From contig JAKSIB010000007.1 of assembly GCA_024399065.1 (NCBI GenBank), positions 1 to 64,000 of the forward strand: 64,000 nt of DNA, read 5' to 3'. A model generated the notes under the pieces. It was given only the letters and a program-made list of their open reading frames with translations. It was not told the DNA's origin and did no database searches. Source of the stretch: Fibrobacter sp. (GTDB lineage Bacteria > Fibrobacterota > Fibrobacteria > Fibrobacterales > Fibrobacteraceae). Made by a program: the position numbers and the translations under genes. Below, in pieces: positions 4,273 through 10,686 of this stretch; within the stretch, counting starts at the first letter, position 1, and the number at the start of each line of letters is the position of its first letter.

Positions 4273-4298
4273 AAAAAGCCCCGGACAACGCCGAGGCC
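4273..4298 (-). terminator. Rho-independent terminator after the 47-residue peptide gene
   Basis: On the minus strand a 7-bp stem, GCCTCGG/CCGGGGC with one G-U pair, and a 6-base loop are followed by TTTTT. It lies about 30 nt after the peptide's stop codon. Confidence 0.75.
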
Positions 4299-4325: not shown

Positions 4326-4469
4326 TTAGTCGAATATGTCGTGGTATTCTACCACGGATTCAACTTCTTCGTCAACGCAGTCCAAGCTGCAGCATAGGAT
4401 TCCTACGTCGTTCGTAACATCGATGATTTCCATCCTAGGAGCTATGTATTCTTTCTTTTCGTTTTCCAT
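4326..4469 (-). CDS. Small Cys-containing peptide with a YxxP-type leader
   Basis: A 47-residue protein (MENEKKEYIAP at the start, three cysteines in ILCCSLDC, then a very acidic tail). The start is well supported: TAGGAGGAAAA precedes the ATG, and the stop of the large surface-protein gene is only 12 nt upstream, so the two share a transcript that ends at the terminator at 4273-4298. There is no signal peptide. The EYIAPRMEI segment recalls the YxxP leader motif that RiPP recognition elements bind in lasso-type precursors, and small proteins of this look are also frequent and unexplained in Bacteroidota. No maturation enzyme is encoded in the window. The function is unknown. Confidence 0.75.
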   Translation of the reverse strand: MENEKKEYIAPRMEIIDVTNDVGILCCSLDCVDEEVESVVEYHDIFD

Positions 4470-4481
4470 TTTTCCTCCTAA

Positions 4482-7400
4482 TTACTTGTTCACGATTGCC
4501 TTGTTGTTCTTGATGTAGGCGCCACGGGCGGTGGGCTTGCCGTTCAGGTGACGGCCCTGGAGGTCGTACCAGCGGGCAGGCTTCTTGTCGGCGGTGTTGA
4601 GGTTGTCGCCGGCGATGCCCTGGATAACGTCTTCGATTACGGTTTCGTCAACGACTTCATTGTTATCGTCCACGATGCGGACAACGATTGTCTTCGGGAG
4701 TTCCTCAGTCTCATTGGCAGCGGCCTTCATCAGGCCAACGCCGGGCTTGGGGGAAACCACAGGCTTGTTGTACACCAGGTAGGCGCGCATGGGCGGAACA
4801 CTTGCACCGACACCAGCCTTCACGAACTGGCCGGCCACGATGTTATCGCCTTCGTTGACGCCGGCAAAGCCGTAGACCTTGCCCAGTTCCGGATCGCCCT
4901 CGACCCAGGTCTTGCCCTTGTAGGCACCCCTGAATGTCCAGGGACCGGAAGTGCTTTCCATAATCTTGCCAGTCGTTGCCTTGAGAGTCACGTTATCCAC
5001 GGAGATGGAGGCGTTCTTGTTGAACTTGATAAGGTACGGGGTGTTGGCCACAATGCTCTTGGCTCTGGTACCGGTTGCAACCCACTGGTCGCCTTCCTTC
5101 TGCACGTCGGTAATCTGGAGCACGTCTTCCATGTCTTCGTTCAGGTCCATGGAGAACGGAAGCATCAACGTAGAGAAACGGCCGGCAGTGAAGTTGCGGG
5201 CGATCTCGATATGTTCCACGGTAATGTCCTCGGGAACCACAAGCTCGTCGGTGCTCTTGGAACCGGACAGGGTTGCCACAACGCCTTCCCCATCGCCATC
5301 CTTGGCCAAGGCAATACCGCTGATGGGCTTGAGGGTTGCGCTAGCTGTCTTCAGTTCCTGAATGTCTTCGGCAGTGAGCTCGCCTTCGTAGATTTTGCCG
5401 TTGGCATAGAACTGCTTGCCTTCTTCGATTGCAATGGAGGCCGCTTCCGCAGGAATTTCCAAGTCTGCGACATTGACTTCTTCAGAAGCTTCATCCCATG
5501 TGAGAACCAGTTCCGGCTTTACGATAGAACCGCTGAAATTGGGATACTTGTCGCCGGCAGTAACGTTCTGACCCCAGATGGAATTTTCATCAGAACCGCG
5601 AAGCAGAGCTGCCACGGAACCGTTGGCGAAGTCATCGAGAGACATGGCGGTACCAAGGGAAGACACGCCGGATCCCTGTCCTGCAAATCCAAGGTCGCCT
5701 TCAAGGTAGAACACATTGGATACAGTCAAATTACTTACAGAAGTGTAACCCACAACTGCACCTACATCATTGTGATGCATGCTATCATAGATAATTTCAC
5801 CAAGATTGTAGGAGTTACTTAAGCTAACTTTTGCAGAGGAGAATCCAACTAAGCCGCCCGTTGTGTTCGGAGCAGAGACAGTGCCTAAATTGTAACAGTT
5901 ATTCATGCTCAAACTTCCCACAGCAAGGAAACCAACGAGACCTCCTGCGTTGGAATTGTGATTAGGCCCAGTTACAGAAGCTTCATTATAACTGTTTTCA
6001 ATGGTCAAGACCCCTGCAACAAAACCAACAATACCGCCAACCTGGGAACTACTGACTTCAACAGCACCCTTGGTATAAACATTAGAAATGTTCACCTCAC
6101 CAGAAATCTGTCCTACAATCATGCCAACATTGCTTTCGCCCCTAATATAAGAGTCGACAACGCCAACATTCTTTATGGAAGCGCCCTGAACAGCAAAACC
6201 GAACAAGCCTACCGCAGAGGCTCCATCATTGAAATATAGACCAGAAATCTTATGGCCTTGTCCATCAAAGGTTCCTTGGAAAGGATGTTCTTTTATCAAA
6301 GAGCCGATTGGGGTCCACTTACGGAGATTAGAACCATCCCCATTCAAGGATCCATCTTTCTTCAAAACGTTTTCATTAACAACAATGTCTGCAGTCAACT
6401 TAGCACAAGCTGCATTAGCATTGTTGACTCCATTGTTTACCCTATCCGCAAAGAGATAAAGATCATCAGCGGATGCAATTTCATAGCAGCCTTCAGAATC
6501 TACATTAGAAACGAATTTTCCAAAGATATAATCAACGCCTTCAGGGATTTCGGTTATTGGTTCTCCCGTGAAGTCCGTATACCAACCCTCAAAGCGATAG
6601 CCGGGAATCGATGGTACGGGAAGTTCAAAATTATTTTCATACGCATATGATTCTTCACTCCAAAATTCGCCATCTACAAATTTTACCAGACGTACGAGTT
6701 TGAAGTTCTCGGAAACTTCACCGCTGAAGTTCGGCAACTTATCTCCAGCAACAACATCTTGTCCCCACATATAATTGATTCCATGTAGAATTGCAGCAAC
6801 GTATCCGTTTTCAAAAGACTCCATGGGTACTACACTTGCGTCCTCCCAACGAGTGGAAAGTATTTCAGGAACGAAGGCATTATACAAATAAATTTCAGGA
6901 TTTATACTATGAGAACTTCCGACAAAGGCATCTTTAGAAAGAGAACCTTCATATTTGCCAACATAGAAGGCGTTTGCAATATCTACCTCCGATTCGCCAG
7001 CAACGAAGCCCACAAAGCCTCCAACAGTAGCTCCCTTCAAAGTAGACGTACTATAGCAATCGTAAATATAAACATACTGATCGTAAACAACACCAACAAA
7101 GGAACCGATTTTATCCCCTTCGAAATAAGAATCCTCAATACCAATTCCATGCACATCAGCACGGCCTACATAACCGAATAAACCGGCATCACTTACAGTT
7201 GAATACAACCCGGAAATAACATGACCCTGGCCATCAAATTCTCCTTGATAGTGATTATAAAAATCACCAATCGGAGTCCATGTTTTGAAACTAGAACCAT
7301 CCCCATTTAGGGTTCCATCGGCCTTCAGCACGTTGGTATTTACGACAATATCCTGAGTCAACCTAGCGTTAGCATATGTTTCGCCAGAATTCACCAAAGT

Positions 7401-9920
7401 GGCAAACTCATACAAACCTGCAGCTGAACTTATTTCATAATAGCCGTCAACAAATGCAAGAGTTGTCACTCTTCCATAAAGATCCAGGTCTTCTGTTTCT
7501 AGAGAAGATATGGCATCTACTTTTTCGCTGTAGCTATCCGATGTAAACCAGCCTAAAATCTTTTTATCTTCAATTTCACCAGGCAATTCTGCGCCTATAC
7601 CAGATATATAAGTATCAGTAACTGTTGTGCCATCAGAGAGATGGTATGTGATTTTCTTTTCAAAATCACAACCAATCAACGTTCCCGAGAAATTGGGATG
7701 TAGGTCGCCATTGGTTACATTCTGCCCCCATACAGAACCAACAACAGAACCATCGTTAAAAATATTCAGCAAATGAGCAACAAAGCCGTTATGCACCAAC
7801 ACGTCATTAACAAGATATCCATAAGTAGTAGTGAAATACTTATTTTGCTTATAGAAACTGTTAATGACGTTGACCTGAGCCTTGGTGGAATTGCCGATAA
7901 AATTTCCTAAGTCAACGTTTTTTTCAAATTCATTGTCAACATAGCTATTTACAACACTTATAGAAGCAGGCGTCGCTCCTACAACATTTTGACCTTCTAG
8001 GTAGCCAACAAGTCCACCAGCTTTATAACCTTCTACACTAGCAACGTTATAAACATTTTCAAAACTCATTTGTGCCTGTTTAGCATGTCCGACAAAGCCA
8101 CCGACGTTTTCAAAATTACTTGATACTCGACCTTCATTTGAACTTGTTTTAAAGTTCAACTTCGCGTAATAATCTGCATAGCCAACAATACCGCCAATAT
8201 CTCCATCTTCACTTTCGACCGTTGCCTTATTATGAACATTTTCAAAGTTCAGCAAAGTGTTGGATCCCACATAACCAACAATACCACCAATATGCCTTAC
8301 ACCGGTAAAATAGGAGTCTCTTAAGGTCAAATTCTTAATGACGGTACTTTCTCCATAGTTGCCTGAATTCTGTACATAGCCAAACAAGCCCATATTGTCT
8401 CGAGTGTTGTTTTGGTAACTAGGCGCACGTAACACCGCAGGCGTTTGAGTTTCTGTAGGTACAGACGGCCTTGACAAAATAGGAGCATTTTTGATTTTAA
8501 TATACAGACCAGAAATACTATGGTTATTGCCGTCAAAGATTCCCTTAAAGGCATTTCCATAGTTAGTACCAATACCAATGGGAATCCAGCTAACATAATT
8601 ACCTTCATTTACAAATCCAGCATCATCAACCACATCTTTATTTACAGTAATGTCAGCTGTCAATTTACCGCAAGCGTAATTCTCCGCATAACGGCCTTCT
8701 TCATAATCGCCATTCACAATAGCGGCGAAACCATAAAGTTCAGCAGCATTTGAAATTAGATAGCAATTACGGCCGTCTTTCTCCGGTTCAGAAATAGCTA
8801 GACCATTTGTGTACAAATCAAGATTACCCGTCATATCGCTATACAGGTACTCCACTTCATTGGTCAAATTTTTATCTGTATACCATTCACCTACAATGTG
8901 GTTCGCGATGGTCGTTGGTAAAGAGAAACCTTCACCCTCCAAATAAAGGGTTTCTATGCTGGATCCATCTGCAAAATGGTATGTCAACCGAGATACACCA
9001 GAAATTCCATTCAAATCACCCTTGAAATTTGGTTTTGAATCTCCGGCAGCAACATTTTGCCCCCAAATAGATCCGTTAGATTTCGCACCCAAGTAGGAGT
9101 GAAGCTTTGCCGCAACACGCCCGTTTCTCATGTCGCCGTCGGAGACTAGGCTTCCGAAATCGGAGTTTGAATTCACATAGAAACTATTTTCAACAGAATT
9201 GTTACTAAAATAGACATCGAGTGAACCAATAAATGCATCTTTATTCGACGTTACTATAGGACGCAAAGATCCTGCAAAATAACTATTGTAAATATTGACA
9301 GTTTCGCTGTTGAACCCAACAAAGCCACCAACACCATCAGAGGGATTGGAACCTCCAACAACACTGCTTGTGGTATAACTGTTGGTAATGGTAAGCTTCG
9401 CTCCATTATTCACCACTTTTCCGACAAACGCACCGGCGTCTCCTTTGCCCTTGAAGTAGGAATCCTCAAGGCCGACGTTCTTGATTTCGGCACTGACAGT
9501 ACTGGAAGAGCTCGTTGCATTCACTTCTGCAATAAAACCGGCGGCATCAGCATTGACATCTGTGTACAAACCGGAAATCACATGGCCCTGACCGTCAAAG
9601 GAACCATTGAAGCGTTGAATGGGAGTCCAGGATTCAAAAGAGCCTTCCGCTAAAGAACCGTCATCGTTTAAGACACCTTCATTGACGGTAATGTCTGCAG
9701 TCAGCTTGACGCACGCATTAAAGACAGGGGAAGAATAATAACCGTAATTCTCTGCTTTCACCATTTCCGCAAACCCGTACAGTTCGTCAGCGGTCCCAAT
9801 GAGGTAGCAGCCTTCGGAGTCCTTACGAAGATCCTCGGCAGGCGTGGGAGTAATAGCAGCACTTGCACTGGTAACAAAGGCAAATGCGAACAATGACAGG
9901 AAAATGGCTTTTTTAAGCAT
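4482..9920 (-). CDS. Giant secreted repeat protein with GLUG-type modules
   Basis: An 1812-residue exported protein. It has a signal peptide (MLKKAIFLSLFAFAFVTSASA) and four long modules that begin near residues 30, 380, 825 and 1140. Each module opens with a CYxIssAxeLYxFA motif, passes through ADITVN and FDGQGHxISGLY, contains many GGLVGF/GGIVGY GLUG-like strands, and closes with IWGQNVxAGDxxPNFSG. Between modules are InlB/Listeria-Bacteroides-type segments (GWYTD). The C-terminus carries a WYDLQGRHLNGKPTARGAY tail like the sorting or anchoring tails of Fibrobacter and Bacteroides surface proteins. A beta-helical, adhesin-like role is inferred. The start at 9920 was chosen for its AGGTGGAG ribosome site and signal peptide. 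The 47-residue peptide gene follows directly. Confidence 0.88.
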   Translation of the reverse strand: MLKKAIFLSLFAFAFVTSASAAITPTPAEDLRKDSEGCYLIGTADELYGFAEMVKAENYGYYSSPVFNACVKLTADITVNEGVLNDDGSLAEGSFESWTPIQRFNGSFDGQGHVISGLYTDVNADAAGFIAEVNATSSSSTVSAEIKNVGLEDSYFKGKGDAGAFVGKVVNNGAKLTITNSYTTSSVVGGSNPSDGVGGFVGFNSETVNIYNSYFAGSLRPIVTSNKDAFIGSLDVYFSNNSVENSFYVNSNSDFGSLVSDGDMRNGRVAAKLHSYLGAKSNGSIWGQNVAAGDSKPNFKGDLNGISGVSRLTYHFADGSSIETLYLEGEGFSLPTTIANHIVGEWYTDKNLTNEVEYLYSDMTGNLDLYTNGLAISEPEKDGRNCYLISNAAELYGFAAIVNGDYEEGRYAENYACGKLTADITVNKDVVDDAGFVNEGNYVSWIPIGIGTNYGNAFKGIFDGNNHSISGLYIKIKNAPILSRPSVPTETQTPAVLRAPSYQNNTRDNMGLFGYVQNSGNYGESTVIKNLTLRDSYFTGVRHIGGIVGYVGSNTLLNFENVHNKATVESEDGDIGGIVGYADYYAKLNFKTSSNEGRVSSNFENVGGFVGHAKQAQMSFENVYNVASVEGYKAGGLVGYLEGQNVVGATPASISVVNSYVDNEFEKNVDLGNFIGNSTKAQVNVINSFYKQNKYFTTTYGYLVNDVLVHNGFVAHLLNIFNDGSVVGSVWGQNVTNGDLHPNFSGTLIGCDFEKKITYHLSDGTTVTDTYISGIGAELPGEIEDKKILGWFTSDSYSEKVDAISSLETEDLDLYGRVTTLAFVDGYYEISSAAGLYEFATLVNSGETYANARLTQDIVVNTNVLKADGTLNGDGSSFKTWTPIGDFYNHYQGEFDGQGHVISGLYSTVSDAGLFGYVGRADVHGIGIEDSYFEGDKIGSFVGVVYDQYVYIYDCYSTSTLKGATVGGFVGFVAGESEVDIANAFYVGKYEGSLSKDAFVGSSHSINPEIYLYNAFVPEILSTRWEDASVVPMESFENGYVAAILHGINYMWGQDVVAGDKLPNFSGEVSENFKLVRLVKFVDGEFWSEESYAYENNFELPVPSIPGYRFEGWYTDFTGEPITEIPEGVDYIFGKFVSNVDSEGCYEIASADDLYLFADRVNNGVNNANAACAKLTADIVVNENVLKKDGSLNGDGSNLRKWTPIGSLIKEHPFQGTFDGQGHKISGLYFNDGASAVGLFGFAVQGASIKNVGVVDSYIRGESNVGMIVGQISGEVNISNVYTKGAVEVSSSQVGGIVGFVAGVLTIENSYNEASVTGPNHNSNAGGLVGFLAVGSLSMNNCYNLGTVSAPNTTGGLVGFSSAKVSLSNSYNLGEIIYDSMHHNDVGAVVGYTSVSNLTVSNVFYLEGDLGFAGQGSGVSSLGTAMSLDDFANGSVAALLRGSDENSIWGQNVTAGDKYPNFSGSIVKPELVLTWDEASEEVNVADLEIPAEAASIAIEEGKQFYANGKIYEGELTAEDIQELKTASATLKPISGIALAKDGDGEGVVATLSGSKSTDELVVPEDITVEHIEIARNFTAGRFSTLMLPFSMDLNEDMEDVLQITDVQKEGDQWVATGTRAKSIVANTPYLIKFNKNASISVDNVTLKATTGKIMESTSGPWTFRGAYKGKTWVEGDPELGKVYGFAGVNEGDNIVAGQFVKAGVGASVPPMRAYLVYNKPVVSPKPGVGLMKAAANETEELPKTIVVRIVDDNNEVVDETVIEDVIQGIAGDNLNTADKKPARWYDLQGRHLNGKPTARGAYIKNNKAIVNK

Positions 9921-9949
9921 AGTTCTCCACCTAATAAAAAATTCCGCGG

Positions 9950-9957
9950 CAAAGTTA
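9950..9957 (-). promoter_or_regulatory. Promoter element of the giant surface-protein gene
   Basis: The minus strand reads TAACTTTG, 29 nt before the ATG at 9920, with the ribosome site AGGTGGAG (about 9925-9933) between them. Confidence 0.45.
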
Positions 9958-10026
9958 GAAACCAACGTTCTTCATTGTAAGTTTTTTGTAAGTTGTTTTT
10001 ACAAAAGTTTACATACAAAGGAAAAG

Positions 10027-10058
10027 GCCGAAACTGGCGTTTTTAGACCAATTTCGGC
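10027..10058 (-). terminator. Terminator-like hairpin after the FISUMP gene
   Basis: GCCGAAA and TTTCGGC (10027-10033 and 10052-10058) form the stem, extended by TGG/CCA. On the minus strand it is followed by a T-rich run, so it can end the FISUMP transcript. Confidence 0.6.
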
Positions 10059-10095
10059 ATATTTTATTGAATATCAACGAGTTAAGTTGTTCTAA

Positions 10096-10686
10096 CTAAT
10101 TCCTCAAGCAGCGCACGGAGTACATGTTGGTGCTGATGTCGAAGTCGCGGCTGAAGTCACCGGGAGGAGCGAGGTGCCAGCCAAAGGCGTCGCCGTCTTC
10201 TTCGGTGGCGCTCCAGAAGTGGGCGGAGACCCCAAGGTCGTAGAATCCGTCAGAAGCCTTCCCTGCCGGAACCACGTCAAAGCCGTAGCGGTCGGAGCCG
10301 TCCCACTTGTCGCGGGACTTGAGGCTCACCCAGGCGTCTTCCTTGCCGTCACTATCCTCGATGAACTTTTTGAACATGGTCCATTCTTCGTCTTCGGGCA
10401 GGTGCCAACCTGCAGGGCAAGCCTTGAGGGCGTCCTCGAAGGTATAAAGTCGACCGAACTTCTTGCAGTTTTCCTCTGAATTGTCGTAGCAGGCGCTGTT
10501 TTTGGTCTTGAAAGCCAGATTTTCGGCCATCCACAACCTTGAACCTACATATACGGTCCGGTATTCACGGCCGTCACGACCATCCCTGAAGGTGCCGGTC
10601 TGGGGAACGGCGAAACTTGGCACAAAGTTTGCAAAAACAAATATTGTAACAGCAAAGACCCTAGAACAAAGGCGTAATTTTTTCAT
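10096..10686 (-). CDS. Secreted FISUMP-domain protein
   Basis: A 196-residue exported protein with a basic, hydrophobic N-terminal signal (to about residue 30) followed by one Fibrobacter succinogenes major paralogous domain: DGREYRTVYVGSRLWMAENL, a GRLYTFEDAL segment, CPAGWHLPEDEEW, FWSATE, and a final YSVRCLRN. The family (TIGR02145) is abundant in Fibrobacter and its function is not established; a surface or binding role is usually supposed. I placed the start at the ATG at 10686; a TTG four codons upstream is possible. Two GTTTACAA motifs lie just upstream. Confidence 0.88.
   Translation of the reverse strand: MKKLRLCSRVFAVTIFVFANFVPSFAVPQTGTFRDGRDGREYRTVYVGSRLWMAENLAFKTKNSACYDNSEENCKKFGRLYTFEDALKACPAGWHLPEDEEWTMFKKFIEDSDGKEDAWVSLKSRDKWDGSDRYGFDVVPAGKASDGFYDLGVSAHFWSATEEDGDAFGWHLAPPGDFSRDFDISTNMYSVRCLRN

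Follow-up and report, generated by a model that had tools for sequence, protein, structure and literature searches.

The peptide of 47 residues encoded near the beginning of the window, by which we mean the whole stretch of 64,000 nucleotides of Fibrobacter DNA that was analysed, is most likely a precursor similar to those of linear polyphosphorylated peptides (LPP), matured in trans by shared enzymes. By analogy with LPP, we consider it to be one of nine dispersed precursors of such a RiPP system in its genome, each dedicated to one surface protein, and assign to this reading a probability of about 0.78. LPP were described in Bacillota, to which they are stated to be restricted, and their role is unknown according to the same description (Popov et al. 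2026, PMC13381572). In these systems LppB binds the YxxP leader of LppA, LppK adds several phosphates to Ser3 of the core and LppS cuts after residue -1; the leaders follow the motif [Y/W]xxPx[L/V/I/A/F/Y] and the C terminus is variable (PMC13381572). Residues N33 and D70 of LppB hold the Tyr and the Pro kink, thus selecting YxxP leaders, and PbaB1 has Gly and Gln in their place.

The first-pass annotation had described the ribosome site of the peptide gene, a gap of 12 nt between the stop codon of the upstream surface-protein gene and its ATG, and a terminator of its own, all of which are present (table 1); it was equally correct on the YxxP motif, the acidic tail and the lack of a signal peptide. 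The same gene pair is found in one other Fibrobacter species, where the peptide is 98% identical and its gene differs at two of 141 nt, by a synonymous change and by one that produces E34D. Pfam and NCBIfam gave no match when searched with the window peptide alone. A profile built from 24 relatives and run on 80 Fibrobacter species genomes retrieved 360 family copies in 74 of them, and nine copies lie in the genome of the window. Outside the genus, a single one of the further genomes sampled from the same phylum has copies, and family members are present also in Prevotella and Segatella.

Table 1. Features of the peptide gene and of its partner in the window
Feature	Position	Strand	Remarks
47-aa precursor-like peptide gene, family member	4326..4469	-	MENEKKEYIAPRMEIIDVTNDVGILCCSLDCVDEEVESVVEYHDIFD; frame exists as first annotated
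Shine-Dalgarno AGGAGG	4474..4479	-	4 nt before the peptide ATG; from sequence
Terminator-like hairpin followed by T-run	4277..4298	-	Downstream of the peptide gene
Putative leader, residues 1-25	4395..4469	-	MENEKKEYIAPRMEIIDVTNDVGIL; most conserved half in the family, pN/pS below that of the tail
YIAPRM, putative RRE-binding motif YxxPx[hydrophobic], residues 8-13	4431..4448	-	Motif definition from PMC13381572
Putative core, residues 26-47	4329..4394	-	CCSLDCVDEEVESVVEYHDIFD; variable and acidic in the family
Ser28, candidate phosphorylation site	4386..4388	-	Conserved Ser of LLxxS; analogous to LppA core Ser3
1812-aa surface protein gene, partner of the peptide	4482..9920	-	Signal peptide, GLUG-like and Listeria-Bacteroides repeats; start chosen at MLKKAIFLSLFAFAFVTSASAA
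Short T9SS-like C-terminal sorting domain	4485..4715	-	ARWYDLQGRHLNGKPTARGAYIKNNKAIVNK; profile A5, E 5e-24

All 120 unique Fibrobacter members have the Tyr and Pro of YxxP together with a hydrophobic +5 residue (M, V, L or I, with M the commonest), and a Ser follows at Y+20 in 88% of them and within +18 to +21 in 100%; since the N-terminal part is what the profile selects for, the conservation of this Ser and the test of coding pressure weigh more than the leader motif. That test, made on 16 independent close pairs from the family, gave a pN/pS of 0.32 (0.23 for the first part and 0.39 for the tail), and hence the frame is under purifying selection. With L at +16 in 90% and at +17 in 81% of the same 120 members, a segment LLxxS sits about 16 residues past YxxP, and the remaining tail is variable and acidic. 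Family size, selection on the frame and invariant residues bear out the early judgement that the peptide looks real, and the frame is kept in related strains. Of the two residue patterns then singled out for comparison, YxxP is conserved and the cysteines are not: 42 of the 120 members have no Cys after the leader, so that cysteines are no feature of the family.

The coupling with a giant surface protein, first remarked for the window alone, turned out to be a general rule. Among 113 unique Fibrobacter peptides, 107 start no more than 600 nt past a gene ending in a short sorting domain (consensus W[FY]DLxGRKLNxKPTxKGxYYxNGKKVIxK), the median gap from partner gene to peptide being 16 nt. The partner proteins are adhesin-like, with GLUG, InlB-type and BspA-LRR repeats. 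Each of the six high-score sorting domains in the genome of the window has one or two peptides behind it. With a sorting-domain profile that was seeded from surface proteins adjoining peptides, 28 of 40 matches in the genus list have a peptide (E<0.01) within about 900 nt downstream, and some of the other 12 may belong to tandem arrays. Several peptides in tandem after a single partner are seen repeatedly in the genus. Two earlier proposals, a modified-peptide precursor and a small partner of the surface protein, are thus both likely to be right, and the third, a regulator, found no support.

Peptide and sorting domain are concordant in presence and absence in 80 of 80 genomes (Fisher 3e-9), and their copy numbers are correlated (rho 0.82, rising to 0.88 in high-quality genomes). 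In the 40 high-quality genomes, a discrete RiPP recognition element (RRE), whose co-occurrence had been suggested as a check, the NTP transferase and the sorting domain each accompany the peptides in 37 of 37 cases and are missing from the three genomes without peptides, with the qualification that these genomes are related and the absences may be few independent events. Four peptide-bearing genomes, none of high quality, show no clear RRE match. The incomplete genomes G032 and G076 have the RRE and neither peptide nor short sorting domain, possibly as remnants or because of assembly gaps. SprA, the T9SS translocon, was looked for in 11 genomes and occurs in every one, among them five of the six that lack peptides, so that the peptide varies with the short domain and not with T9SS as such.

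The nature of the sorting domain needs to be qualified. Its motifs resemble those of the short CTDs in T9SS cargo of Prevotella intermedia (PMC11969387), which likewise are short C-terminal signals of surface proteins with GR, GxY and terminal K motifs; TIGR04183 and the curated T9SS models matched none of eight partner proteins, and the case for type IX secretion consequently rests on motif resemblance. In contrast to the Prevotella cargo, for which PMC11969387 describes no peptide partner, the Fibrobacter proteins have a putative one, and their domains, which are predicted signals, find no NCBIfam match at the thresholds used.

What purpose could a modified peptide have behind an adhesin gene? 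One answer is that the same enzymes make stand-alone signals or antimicrobials, co-expressed with adhesins merely because both serve a shared niche. The hypervariable tails, the many paralogues per genome, the ABC exporter and the one copy of the window's genome that has no surface-protein partner would all fit such products, which nonetheless we regard as unlikely: the one-to-one match with a single sorting domain, in presence and in copy number, is tighter than niche sharing requires, and no immunity gene was seen in the mapped operons.

The enzymes that would mature the peptide form a conserved operon in Fibrobacter, adjoining some of the peptide copies, in which a short-CTD surface protein and its peptide or peptides often precede NTP_transf_5, a kinase, a signal-peptidase-like (SpI-like) peptidase, the RRE and an ABC exporter. 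In the genome of the window these genes lie on three contigs: C6 (2836-5174) has the peptidase, RRE and ABC exporter, C4 has NTP_transf_5, and on C17 the kinase immediately follows a peptide copy; the window peptide does not adjoin any of them. The PqqD-type RRE is a discrete protein of about 90 residues found as one copy in nearly all peptide-bearing genomes and scoring over the Pfam cut-off (PqqD, 1.9e-13). Its N35 and D74, which do not vary among 15 Fibrobacter RREs, align to N33 and D70 of LppB (9x8z) and to G42 and Q79 of PbaB1 (9x90). Direct similarity to LppB is weak (E 0.57), and the lasso-type TfuB1 matches with E 0.0015. The NTP transferase matches Pfam PF14907 (E about 1e-41) and the exporter ABC_membrane plus ABC_tran (1e-28). 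The peptidase, of 145-160 residues with invariant Ser32, His70 and Asp85, is modelled (pLDDT 86) with a predicted LexA/SPase-I fold, its Pfam S24 scores being mostly under the curated cut-off. The kinase has invariant P-loop motifs and a model (pLDDT 89) that places it in the PEPCK-type kinase fold (Z about 15), with Hpr_kinase_C scoring only E 0.007-0.075, under the curated cut-off; its Foldseek/VIA fold matches are PEPCK chains, and that HprK is not listed among them means little. Searches of the Protein Data Bank by sequence with a single peptidase and kinase gave nothing useful. Of the genes whose co-occurrence the first-pass annotation proposed to test, that for the RRE does accompany the peptide, and the other enzymes found with it are the kinase, nucleotidyltransferase, protease and exporter just named; the mapped operons show neither a radical SAM enzyme nor a lasso cyclase, and PF13471, the B2 protease of lasso systems, occurs in none of the 80 genomes.

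The likeness to LPP extends over several components: a YxxPx[hydrophobic] leader in every one of the 120 members, with M at +5 slightly extending the published set; a discrete RRE with the equivalents of N33 and D70; a signal-peptidase-like peptidase with Ser-His-Asp, judged from sequence and predicted fold; genes for an NTP transferase and an MsbA-like ABC transporter; a conserved Ser just past the leader; and no B2 protease. It may extend to the HprK-like kinase, for which the Fibrobacter protein has a predicted PEPCK-type fold and a weak Hpr_kinase_C score. There are also differences. The full LPP consensus YxxPxVLxHQxIxFETxxS is not found in Fibrobacter, where the Ser lies at Y+20 instead of +18, LL replaces FET, and HQ appears in a minority of members only, at +12/+13. 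Fibrobacter genomes have about 1-12 dispersed precursors, located behind surface-protein genes, whereas LPP clusters have 1-3 and lie at capsule loci; the organisms, too, are here Fibrobacterota and Bacteroidota.

An unmodified cytosolic helper, such as a chaperone or escort that holds the sorting domain as it is made and ahead of Sec export, with YxxP a coincidence, would account for the tight pairing with that domain, the distances typical of translational coupling and the absence of a signal peptide. We find it improbable, because it leaves unexplained an RRE that co-occurs with the peptides and keeps both residues selecting YxxP, the peptides heading the enzyme operon, and a conserved Ser followed by a fast-changing tail. 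A still fainter chance attaches to lasso peptide precursors with a leader of paeninodin type. Paeninodin-type phosphorylated lasso peptides share an HprK-like kinase, an NTP transferase, an RRE and a similar YxxP-bearing leader; in NCBIfam, 5 of 24 family members weakly match their precursors (lasso_PadeA, best 6e-4), and the RRE is of lasso type by its match to TfuB1. Yet the B2 leader peptidase is lacking from all the genomes, no cyclase was seen adjoining the RRE in the mapped loci, the motif has Y and not W, and Asn in the Fibrobacter RRE takes the place of the Gly of paeninodin RREs. A spurious ORF in the 3' region of the long surface-protein gene, suggested by shortness and by the window copy having no Pfam or NCBIfam family, is refuted by the size of the family, ribosome sites of its own, purifying selection and invariant residues.

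The scheme for an LPP-like precursor matured in trans would run as follows. The YxxPxM leader would be captured by the single PqqD-type RRE, whereupon the HprK/PEPCK-like kinase would phosphorylate the conserved Ser (Ser28), a modification by NTP_transf_5 possibly coming next. The serine peptidase of LexA/SPase-I fold would then cut the leader off just ahead of the Ser, and the ABC exporter would carry the acidic core out of the cytoplasm. We have placed the boundary between leader and core near Leu25 by analogy with LppA; if cleavage follows LL, the conserved Ser would be core residue 3, as in LppA. Since the precursor usually lies in an operon behind one surface protein with a short sorting domain, it is most likely with that partner, at the cell surface, that the mature peptide acts, and given that peptides behind surface-protein genes and the enzyme set share the same genomes, each such protein seems to have its own modified peptide. 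A bolder proposal is that surface-protein biogenesis has taken a RiPP pathway into its service, each short-CTD adhesin in Fibrobacter and in many Prevotella having its own phosphorylated peptide that docks on, caps or helps anchor it; we advance this tentatively, as less likely than not.

Prochlorosins provide a precedent of another kind, in which one enzyme set acts in trans on many dispersed precursors having a shared leader and variable cores. Their enzymes and chemistry are wholly different, and the Fibrobacter precursors are each tied to a surface protein. What is new here is that the precursors are dispersed and that the peptide is tied one-to-one to a single type of sorting domain.

The system is not confined to Fibrobacter. 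A scan with the kinase profile, taking one genome per species, found at least 590 relatives, the best 80 of which belong to Prevotella, Segatella, other Bacteroidales and Fibrobacter. Peptidase and RRE lie downstream of the kinase in 50 of the 63 Bacteroidota loci with enough room, and Prevotella and Segatella have the same operon and the same arrangement of the peptide behind the CTD gene; after seven entries from records named Fibrobacter were removed from the list, 22 of 34 Bacteroidota peptides stand behind a short-domain gene. The kinase of the window's genome (C17, 13982-14872) shares 52-60% identity with other Fibrobacter kinases and 54-59% with those of Prevotella, values which hint at a possible exchange between rumen phyla. 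Our literature search found no paper describing this system in Fibrobacter or Bacteroidales. An enzyme set of LPP type, with hundreds of small unannotated precursors, appears to be common in two dominant groups of fibre-degrading rumen bacteria. The one-to-one tie to a class of surface proteins is the first strong clue to the role of such peptides, a role that becomes testable through a single RRE gene and a defined set of surface proteins. It might also bring a new component into type IX surface display.

In some pairs, as in L105 (19105-19233, minus strand), L264, L004, L016 and others, the core of the peptide looks like the strand directly preceding its partner's sorting domain, with matches such as SESMEVEFIER/SNSMEVDFVER, PDRMGVVVDD/PNYLDVVVDD, DTVTVDLIK/ETIEVELVK and DDTIEVEFN/PETIEVEFF. 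Over 47 pairs, own pairs scored 17.1 vs 15.6 for swapped ones in this segment (permutation p 0.003), in a post hoc test devised once the pattern had been noticed and with a signal driven by few striking pairs; two control segments gave no excess (p 0.13 and 0.95). We take this mimicry as a weak lead on the partnership of peptide and protein.

Other members of the family depart from the common arrangement. A subgroup with the sequence MEEKKEYVAPEMKVVDMEYxxMLCxS (L006, L007, L019/L044) has no sorting-domain gene ahead and starts inside a short conserved leader region. On contig C12 of the window's genome (8016-8308, 14559-14932), one surface-protein gene has two peptides in succession behind it. 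On contig C15 (7791-8036, minus strand), the lone member MSTQQKKPYTPPSMKVIEFDFTTSLLACSSNDNPYWNGCWEESEEGYWKGND has no surface-protein partner and is flanked by near-identical transposon-type ORFs of 367 residues (259-1362 and 8998-10101), about 8.7 kb apart.
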